The notes under the pieces were generated by a model. That model was not told the DNA's origin and did no database searches. It saw only the letters and a list, made by a program, of their open reading frames with translations. From Dehalococcoidia bacterium (GTDB lineage: Bacteria > Chloroflexota > Dehalococcoidia > Tepidiformales > Tepidiformaceae): 7,858 nucleotides of DNA. This document shows, piece after piece, positions 6,368 to 7,858 of the stretch. The position numbers were made by a program, and so were the translations under genes. Numbering within the stretch: position 1 is the first letter of the stretch; the number at the start of each line of letters is the position of its first letter. The stretch covers positions 1 to 7,858 of the forward strand of contig VXRS01000159.1 of assembly GCA_009838385.1 (NCBI GenBank). Direction: 5' to 3'.

Positions 6368-7168
6368 CTACTGGAAACGGTGGGGCAGGGGGTCGACGCG
6401 CGGTGGCAGGGCGATCTCGTGGTCGAGCCAGATACCGATGTTCTCGCCGGTGCGGCCGTCGGGGCCCTCCTCGAGGAGGTCGACGAGGAGGCCGGCGATC
6501 TGCTCGGGACGCATCCAGCGGTCGAGGAGCTCCTGCGGAGGCGTCATGCCGAGGGCGCCCCGGATCATCTCCGAGTCGGTTGCGTCCATGCAGAGGGCGT
6601 TCACGCGGACGCCGTGGGGCTCGAGTACGCGCGACCACGCCTGCGTTAGGCCGTTGATGCCCCACTTGGAGGCGTCGTAGACGTCCATGCGGGTGCCACC
6701 TCCGGTGTTGTAGCCGGGTGGCGGACAGATGTGGTCGGTGGCGATGTTGACGATGTTGCCGCCGCCCATCTCGGCCATGTGAGCGGCGATGGACCGCCCG
6801 CAGAGGAACACGCCCTTGAGGTTCGTCGCGATGAGCGCATCGAAGTCGTCAACAGCCTTCTCCCAGGGGTCGAGGGGGGAAGTGGCGCGCCAGATGCCGG
6901 CGTTGCTGACCATGGTGTGGATGCGCCCGAAGCGCTCGATGGCGGCATCGACGAAGGCGCGGACGGCCGCGGGATCGCTGACGTCGGCCTCGGCGGCAAT
7001 GACGCTGGCGCCGTCCGCCTCGAGCTCGGCGGCGAGGTCGTGGACGGCGGGAGCGATGTCGCACAGGGCGAGGGCGACGCCCTTCCCCGCAAGGACGCGG
7101 GCAATGCCGTTTCCGATGCCGTGGGCAGCTCCGGTGACGATCGCGGTTGTGCCTTCGAGGTCGCTCAC
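6368..7168 (-). CDS. Short-chain dehydrogenase/reductase, NAD-type, atypical active site
   Basis: A 266-residue classical SDR with a Rossmann fold. TGAAHGIG (12-19) binds the dinucleotide. Asp37 at the end of the second strand favours NAD(H) over NADP(H). DV (62-63), SNAG (88-91) and N116 are conserved. YDASK (164-168) provides catalytic Tyr164 and Lys168. Two things are unusual. The residue normally Ser after the NI motif is Thr144 (NIATDH), with about seven extra residues (PPPGYNTGGGT) before Tyr164. The usual PG after NA-x-C is replaced by MDATDSEM (194-201), a likely altered substrate loop. The start is GTG at 7168, within a GTGA overlap with the stop of the upstream redoxin, so the two are translationally coupled. 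The substrate is unknown. Confidence 0.9.
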   Translation of the reverse strand: MSDLEGTTAIVTGAAHGIGNGIARVLAGKGVALALCDIAPAVHDLAAELEADGASVIAAEADVSDPAAVRAFVDAAIERFGRIHTMVSNAGIWRATSPLDPWEKAVDDFDALIATNLKGVFLCGRSIAAHMAEMGGGNIVNIATDHICPPPGYNTGGGTRMDVYDASKWGINGLTQAWSRVLEPHGVRVNALCMDATDSEMIRGALGMTPPQELLDRWMRPEQIAGLLVDLLEEGPDGRTGENIGIWLDHEIALPPRVDPLPHRFQ

Positions 7169-7858
7169 GTGGTGGCCTCAATGGGGCGGTAGAAGGCGTT
7201 CCCGGCCTCCGTCCACTCGTTCACGATCTTCATGAAGTCCTCACCCATGGGGTCGAGGCCGCGGATGAGCATGGTGCCGCGACGGATGGTGAAGTCGTGG
7301 GGCGCGAGCTCGCCGGCGCGCACGTAGTGGGGCTCTGCGTCCTCGGCGTGGCCCCGCTGCGAGAGCCACCAGGCGAGCGTGAACTCGGCGCGGGCCTCCT
7401 GCTCGGCGGCCGTGGGGAGCGTCTGCGCGGCACGCGTCTCCTCGGGAGTCATGGCGGGGCCCTCGTCCCGCACCCAGGCGCGCAGCCGCTCGAGATGGAG
7501 CTCGGAGTCGATGCCCGTCATCTCCTTGAAGTCGTTGGACCCGAAGGCGACGTCGTTGGGACGCGCGATGCGGCCTTCCTCGTCGATCCAGAGGATGGTG
7601 GGCACGTTGATCATGCCGTAGAGGTCCGGGACCAGGTGCTCGGTATCGATGAGGCTGGGGTGCTCGGCGCTGGCGGCCTCGATCCAGGGGCGGGCGTCGT
7701 CGGGCGAGCGCTCAATGGCGATCGTGATGACGGTGAAGCCCTCGTCCTTGAGCTCATCGTAGACGGACTGCCAGACCGGCAGGTCGTAGCGGCAGCCTCA
7801 CCAGGAGGCGTAGGCGACGAGCAGGACCTTCTTGCCGCGCTGGTCGCTCAGGGAGTGC
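7165..7858 (-). CDS. Selenocysteine-containing thioredoxin-fold redoxin (ResA/TlpA-like), 5' end missing
   Basis: The frame runs from the window edge to the stop at 7167-7165, 230 codons, and continues straight through one TGA at 7800-7798. Numbering from the first full codon, the strand GKKVLLVAYASW is followed by TGA (position 20), Gly, Cys22, Arg, then YDLPVWQ. This is the redox centre of a ResA/TlpA/AhpC-type fold, so the TGA most likely encodes selenocysteine in a U-x-C motif. The rest of the fold continues after it: VITIAIE, then NVPTILWIDEEGRI with cis-Pro86. A C-terminal helical region contains one TPR-like repeat (about 157-187). A SECIS-like hairpin follows the TGA. The final stop is also TGA, so TGA is not reassigned. 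An ATG at 7614 would give a 149-residue fragment without the active site. I recall a ResA-like WAxxUGC selenoprotein family that fits this motif, but could not verify it. Partner: overlapping SDR gene. Confidence 0.85.
7763..7787 (-). promoter_or_regulatory. Bacterial SECIS-like hairpin
   Basis: On the minus strand CTGCC (7782-7778) pairs with GGCAG (7772-7768) around the loop GGTCT. Below a 2x2 internal loop, ACG (7787-7785) pairs with CGT (7765-7763). The upper stem starts 15 bases after the TGA, and the apical loop 20 bases after it. Bacterial SECIS elements lie inside the coding region just downstream of UGA and present a G and U in the apical loop to SelB. The E. coli fdhF loop, as I recall it, also contains GGUCU at nearly the same distance. 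The stem is short and was paired by eye. Confidence 0.7.
7798..7800 (-). other. In-frame UGA, predicted selenocysteine codon
   Basis: The TGA lies between TGG (Trp) and GGC TGC CGC (Gly-Cys-Arg), at the position of the attacking cysteine of thioredoxin-like centres. It is one base change from the Cys codons TGC or TGT. Protein similarity to a thioredoxin fold is present on both sides of it in the same frame. Confidence 0.82.

Follow-up and report, generated by a model that had tools for sequence, protein, structure and literature searches.

An internal UGA very probably read as selenocysteine in a TlpA/ResA-like redoxin gene of a Dehalococcoidia bacterium

The window, a 7,858-nt stretch of DNA from a Dehalococcoidia bacterium (contig VXRS01000159.1), ends within a minus-strand gene for a TlpA/ResA-like protein whose first redox position is occupied by an in-frame TGA in the context W-U-G-C-R. 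We are highly confident that this codon (7800-7798) specifies selenocysteine (Sec), because in the relatives the TGA exchanges only with Cys codons, a candidate hairpin behind it is conserved, and the five nearest genomes contain the Sec machinery. The relatives showing this exchange come from several phyla, and sequence alone could hardly make the assignment stronger. The features of the gene in the window are the following.

7165-7857, minus strand: predicted UGC selenoprotein, C-terminal 230 residues, with a TlpA/ResA-like domain followed by a TPR-like helical tail; the window end cuts off the 5' part
7798-7800, minus strand: UGA codon predicted to be read as Sec, residue 136 in the full-length L001 homologue
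7792-7794, minus strand: codon of the second redox residue, the Cys of the U-G-C motif, invariant in a 17-sequence alignment
7768-7782, minus strand: candidate SECIS hairpin with a 5-bp stem (CUGCC/GGCAG) and a 5-nt loop (GGUCU), at nt 19-33 with the U of the UGA as nt 1
7279-7383, minus strand: weak TPR_14 match in the C-terminal tail (18.6 bits, below the cut-off of 23.5), helical in the structure model

Read from 7857 to 7165, the gene encodes HSLSDQRGKKVLLVAYASW-TGA-GCRYDLPVW..., 230 residues with one internal TGA at codon 20 and a terminal TGA at 7167-7165. The initial annotation had proposed that a single frame runs through both sides of a TGA at the first redox position, and this was confirmed. 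The Pfam AhpC-TSA domain spans the TGA (residues 2-98 of the window part, 47.4 bits with a cut-off of 26); Redoxin also matches across it. Alignment with solved DsbE/ResA proteins showed that the active-site motif is U-x-C, one residue fewer than the usual CxxC, and the Cys at 7792-7794 is probably the resolving cysteine. Both the frame and the TGA are retained in five separate records titled Chloroflexi or Dehalococcoidia MAGs, whose DNA identity to the window is 96.9% (L001, over 6.7 kb), 94.2% (L002), 90.0% (L003), 86.1% (L004) and 93.2% (L005), and the frame through the TGA is therefore not due to chance. In all five, an in-frame ATG located 135 codons ahead of the TGA is likely the gene start, while that of the window gene lies outside the window. 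The full-length L001 product has 346 aa (~38 kDa).

To follow the codon beyond these records, we kept 79 distinct loci from 90 genome-contig stretches encoding a relative, all of which cover the site except L033. The aligned codon is TGA in 64 loci, TGC in 12 and TGT in 2, with no other codon among the 78, in agreement with the earlier expectation of Cys or Sec at the homologous column. Of the two patterns used to fetch the loci, one required a Cys at this codon and the other was located further downstream, so the retrieval was not tilted towards TGA, and the counts are no census. The TGA-form loci are titled Rokubacteria, Chloroflexota, Pseudomonadota, Actinomycetota and Deltaproteobacteria. 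A tree built from 91 proteins, 70 with Sec and 21 with Cys, requires at least four changes of the Sec/Cys label; L051, whose alignment begins only just before the site, and L037 are long branches in this tree. The protein of L016, a record titled Klebsiella pneumoniae, groups with that of L026 from an alphaproteobacterial MAG, and the label may be wrong.

Only one base separates TGA from TGC or TGT, and the window comes from one record, so a nonsense mutation in a pseudogene or a miscalled Cys codon could be suspected. We consider the chance of this negligible. The same TGA occurs in 64 of the 78 loci, all from assemblies other than that of the window. Among them are the five nearest genomes, where each of the two tandem copies has it; this speaks against the misread or frameshift that the initial annotation had named as a risk. 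In addition, coding constraint persists 3' of the TGA, where the window differs from L001-L005 mainly at third codon positions; compared with L004, there are 10, 9 and 53 differences at codon positions 1, 2 and 3.

Most database records of close relatives do not include the active site. It had been predicted that standard gene calling would leave a 149-residue protein starting at 7614; such an ORF is present in the window, and the relatives follow the same pattern. A protein search of 5.8 billion sequences returned 2097 relatives at E ≤ 0.001, and among the best 120 of these 2097, the active site is present in 7, all with Cys (CGC). The remaining 113 lack it, and 105 of them are 199-209 aa long and so start soon after the site. 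If these C-terminal pieces were taken at face value, the TGA would terminate translation and the gene would yield an N-terminal protein and, by re-initiation further downstream, a C-terminal protein of 149 to ~209 aa. This is very improbable, since each of the seven relatives that include the active site is one continuous Cys protein of 344-349 aa spanning the join, the thioredoxin fold would be cut at its active site according to the structure model, and both the Cys/TGA exchange and the hairpin would have to be explained in some other way. With Sec at the TGA, the short records instead appear to be a case of gene calling hiding a real selenoenzyme. The spread of the TGA form is thus easily missed, and a widened family model could repair such records.

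Directly 3' of the UGA, the candidate SECIS hairpin would form by pairing of nt 19-23 with nt 29-33; a further pair, 18-34, is not formed in the window. We compared 70 Sec sequences (the 64 loci, the window and 5 tandem copies) with 14 Cys sequences and found that all five pairs are possible in 69 of the former and 3 of the latter. Because much of the stem is dictated by the peptide, we recoded the Sec peptides synonymously 1000 times. The five pairs were then possible in a mean of 30.6 and a maximum of 45 of the 70 sequences, compared with the 69 observed; when only Watson-Crick pairs were counted, 51 were observed, compared with a recoded mean of 24.2 and a maximum of 39. The Leu codon at +6 ends with G in every Sec sequence having Leu there (69/69), at seven other Leu positions in 9/47 to 36/47 (19-77%), and in the Cys forms at +6 in 10/14. 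Most of the changes that occur in the stem are wobbles, and we saw no clear compensatory changes among these sequences, which are related rather than independent events.

The ribosome covers the first dozen nucleotides at decoding. When nt 13-45 were folded locally, the complete hairpin was the best structure in 55 of the 70 Sec sequences, including the window and L001-L005, and in 3 of the 14 Cys sequences. When nt 1-57 were folded, it lay within the best fold of 36/70 Sec and 2/14 Cys sequences. The best folds of this longer stretch were not uniform, and a longer rival hairpin that uses the same 3' arm was preferred for the window as well as for L001-L005. The SECIS claim thus rests on the fixed-position counts and the local folds, and binding of SelB to the hairpin is a prediction. 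Rfam gave no match in the window at the gathering threshold. The loop is CGUGU in 41 of the 70 Sec sequences. The peptide encoded here is LPVWQ in 58 Sec forms, LSVWQ in 8, LPGWQ in 3 and MSVWQ in 1, and LPVWQ is found in 2 of the 14 Cys forms. Such pairs of Sec and Cys forms of one protein could be used to test what selenium contributes to a UxC site and how the protein is constrained by an RNA signal within its coding region.

In the passages on SECIS elements in PMC9312934, the bacterial element is placed immediately 3' of the UGA. The 17-nt E. coli-type element (ggttgcaggtctgcacc), in the part of PMC3834832 that describes it, is likewise a short hairpin after the UGA with a GGUC(U) loop, although its stem sequence is unlike that of the window.

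The initial annotation implied that sel genes lie elsewhere in the genome. This was borne out in the five nearest genomes (G001-G005), where tRNA-Sec scores 71.1 bits each (cut-off 47), SelB scores 293-302 bits (cut-off 242), and SelA and SelD are both over their cut-offs; for the window's own organism, we infer the machinery from these close relatives. We searched the genomes of 50 of the 79 loci, 36 of the TGA form and 14 of the Cys form. tRNA-Sec exceeds the cut-off in 31/36 TGA and 10/14 Cys genomes, with a best hit of at least 63.9 bits in all 41, and SelB is over the cut-off in 34/36 TGA and 7/14 Cys genomes, two of these 41 SelB-positive genomes passing only by summing neighbouring pieces. 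Among the control genomes, 5/14 exceed the cut-off for tRNA-Sec and 2/14 that for SelB, indicating that the tRNA-Sec cut-off alone may be permissive. Neither tRNA-Sec nor SelB is over the cut-off in four Cys genomes, all Nocardioidaceae. In one TGA-form genome, G025 (L025), tRNA-Sec, SelB and SelA are not over their cut-offs and SelD was found; we assumed that this MAG is incomplete.

General reassignment of UGA, for example to Trp or Gly, occurs in some bacteria and would also allow the frame to be read through. It does not fit here, because three genes of the window, the cdsA-like, the hydrolase and the redoxin gene, end with TGA, as had been pointed out at the outset. The homologues have Cys at the site rather than Trp or Gly, and the nearest genomes contain the machinery for Sec. 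We regard such a code in this organism as scarcely credible.

Two observations concern other genes in the same genomes. SelD is over the cut-off in nine of 12 genomes searched, and in eight of these nine (G001-G006, G008 and G025) the match contains one in-frame TGA, so that SelD may itself be a selenoprotein there. We also noticed weak redoxin-like matches with one in-frame TGA each at G001:C8:46414-46785 and G005:C33:14378-14746, which are possible further selenoproteins.

To place the codon in the protein, we modelled full-length L001 with AlphaFold using 17 sequences (mean pLDDT 90.8). The model consists of an N-terminal domain, a TlpA-like domain and a helical tail, with the Sec just ahead of a long helix (138-155). 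Its best PDB matches are ResA, headed by 2f9s (E 2.9e-11, TMt 0.77), and it has the thioredoxin-like fold of the ResA/TlpA/DsbE subtype with U-G-C in the place of CxxC. As in Bacillus ResA and the DsbE/TlpA proteins related to it, the first redox residue lies at this position of the fold, but those proteins have CxxC, whereas the window protein has UxC and extra N- and C-terminal domains. ResA is membrane-anchored and lies outside the cytoplasm. In the homologue, reading the sequence by eye revealed no evident signal peptide, and the enzyme would therefore probably be cytosolic. All 17 aligned proteins have a CxxxxC pair in the N-terminal domain. We set it aside as a conserved feature because the strict pattern matches only 52/77 loci; some of the others have a looser form, and several Rokubacteria are without that part. 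L009, L011, L012, L039 and other Rokubacteria loci keep the TGA site and lack the Cys-containing part of the N-terminal domain.

These features suggest how the gene may work. SelB with Sec-tRNA-Sec would bind the hairpin and insert Sec at the internal UGA, and the last UGA of the gene, in a different context, would lead to termination. Judging from the fold and motif, the selenolate would attack a disulfide or a peroxide of the substrate, a selenenylsulfide would be closed by the Cys located two residues after the Sec, and a cellular thiol donor would then re-reduce it. We favour these catalytic steps with some reserve. An engineered CGC thioredoxin is said to have isomerase activity.

Once Sec is inserted, the enzyme might also act mainly as a peroxidase (Prx-like) rather than as a disulfide reductase. 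In Pfam, the full L001 homologue matches AhpC-TSA best (65.5 bits), and the family was named Prx-like in 2008, as seen in the relevant part of PMC2398784. The nearest solved structures, both by sequence and by fold, are ResA/DsbE-type thiol-disulfide oxidoreductases, however, and the second redox residue is placed as in a shortened CxxC. We consider a mainly peroxidatic role unlikely.

Selenoproteins of this UGC kind have already been described, and the window gene is a new member of this kind, in a branch that narrowly misses the curated cut-off of the NCBIfam model NF041054 (WAxxUGC_long, ResA-like). An ocean survey reported 46 Sec and 855 Cys sequences of a 'Prx-like (UGC-containing)' family in the portion of its text that covers it (Zhang and Gladyshev 2008, PMC2398784). 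The reviews PMC9312934 and PMC13188914 list a UGC-containing family in their corresponding passages, the latter as 'UGC-containing TlpA disulfide reductase family protein'. As far as these descriptions go, the family resembles the window protein in having a pfam00578 or cd02966 domain with the UGC motif, and the window protein has both the pfam00578 domain and the UGC active site of this wider kind. NF041054 shares with the window's homologue the U-G-C motif and an N-terminal domain followed by a TlpA/ResA-like domain; L001 has this arrangement, with the N-terminal domain lying outside the window. With a cut-off of 300 bits, the full L001 homologue scores 268.4 and the window part 178.9, both below it. 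Two other members of the homologue set and tree, L047 and L068, lie above it with 368 and 558 bits. The window branch has YASWUGC, in contrast to WASWUGC in NF041054. A literature search by the model's name gave no match, and among the matches listed for SAR202/Rokubacteria (best 12 of 3,334), none was on the YASWUGC branch by title. We propose, with the chances evenly balanced, that a large YASWUGC branch of three-domain cytosolic UGC selenoenzymes escapes annotation, that these Dehalococcoidia keep a tandem Sec-Sec pair in one operon with a short-chain dehydrogenase (SDR) gene, and that LPVWQ is fixed largely by the RNA hairpin, so that the peptide drifts once Sec is replaced by Cys.

The second copy with a TGA was found in all five nearest genomes, its TGA lying 1.1-1.2 kb upstream of that of the first copy, at the following positions.

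4541-5578 in L001, 4538-5575 in L002, 4456-5499 in L004, ~4969 in L003 and ~4943 in L005: second UGC copy, upstream of the first

The second copies are 73-76% identical to the first copy of L001. In the 91-protein tree they group together with support of 99/84, separately from the first copies, whose branch is weaker (91/52), and the duplication is therefore probably older than the split of the five genomes. In the sections of the ocean survey dealing with gene neighbours (PMC2398784), a few reads are named that carry two selenoprotein genes side by side, and no UGC pair is among these.

On the downstream side, the gene meets an SDR gene.

6368-7168, minus strand: SDR gene, whose GTG start overlaps the TGA stop of the selenoprotein gene by 4 nt (GTGA, 7165-7168)

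The same 4-nt overlap is present in the window and in L001-L005, and the selenoprotein and SDR genes likely form one operon in which they would be coupled. An SDR-like frame lies within 1.2 kb downstream in 16 of 76 sequences: the window, four Dehalococcoidia/Chloroflexi loci (the pattern missed L004) and eleven Rokubacteria. Eight of the eleven Rokubacteria frames begin from 4 nt before to 15 nt after the stop, and most of the eleven are of another length (330-332 aa). As SDRs are common, the link is weak. In four Rokubacteria loci (L009, L011, L014 and L030), the same 4-nt overlap occurs with another SDR type. A wider survey of neighbours gave clusters that included doubtful GC-rich frames, and the SDR alone was followed.

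The other genes of the window, as identified by Pfam, encode ribosomal protein S2, EF-Ts, an amino acid kinase that we take to be pyrH from its position, RRF, undecaprenyl diphosphate synthase, a cytidylyltransferase (cdsA-like), an alpha/beta hydrolase and a VTT domain protein, in addition to the SDR. The EF-Ts gene is short (1225-1710), with 161 aa from the chosen start.
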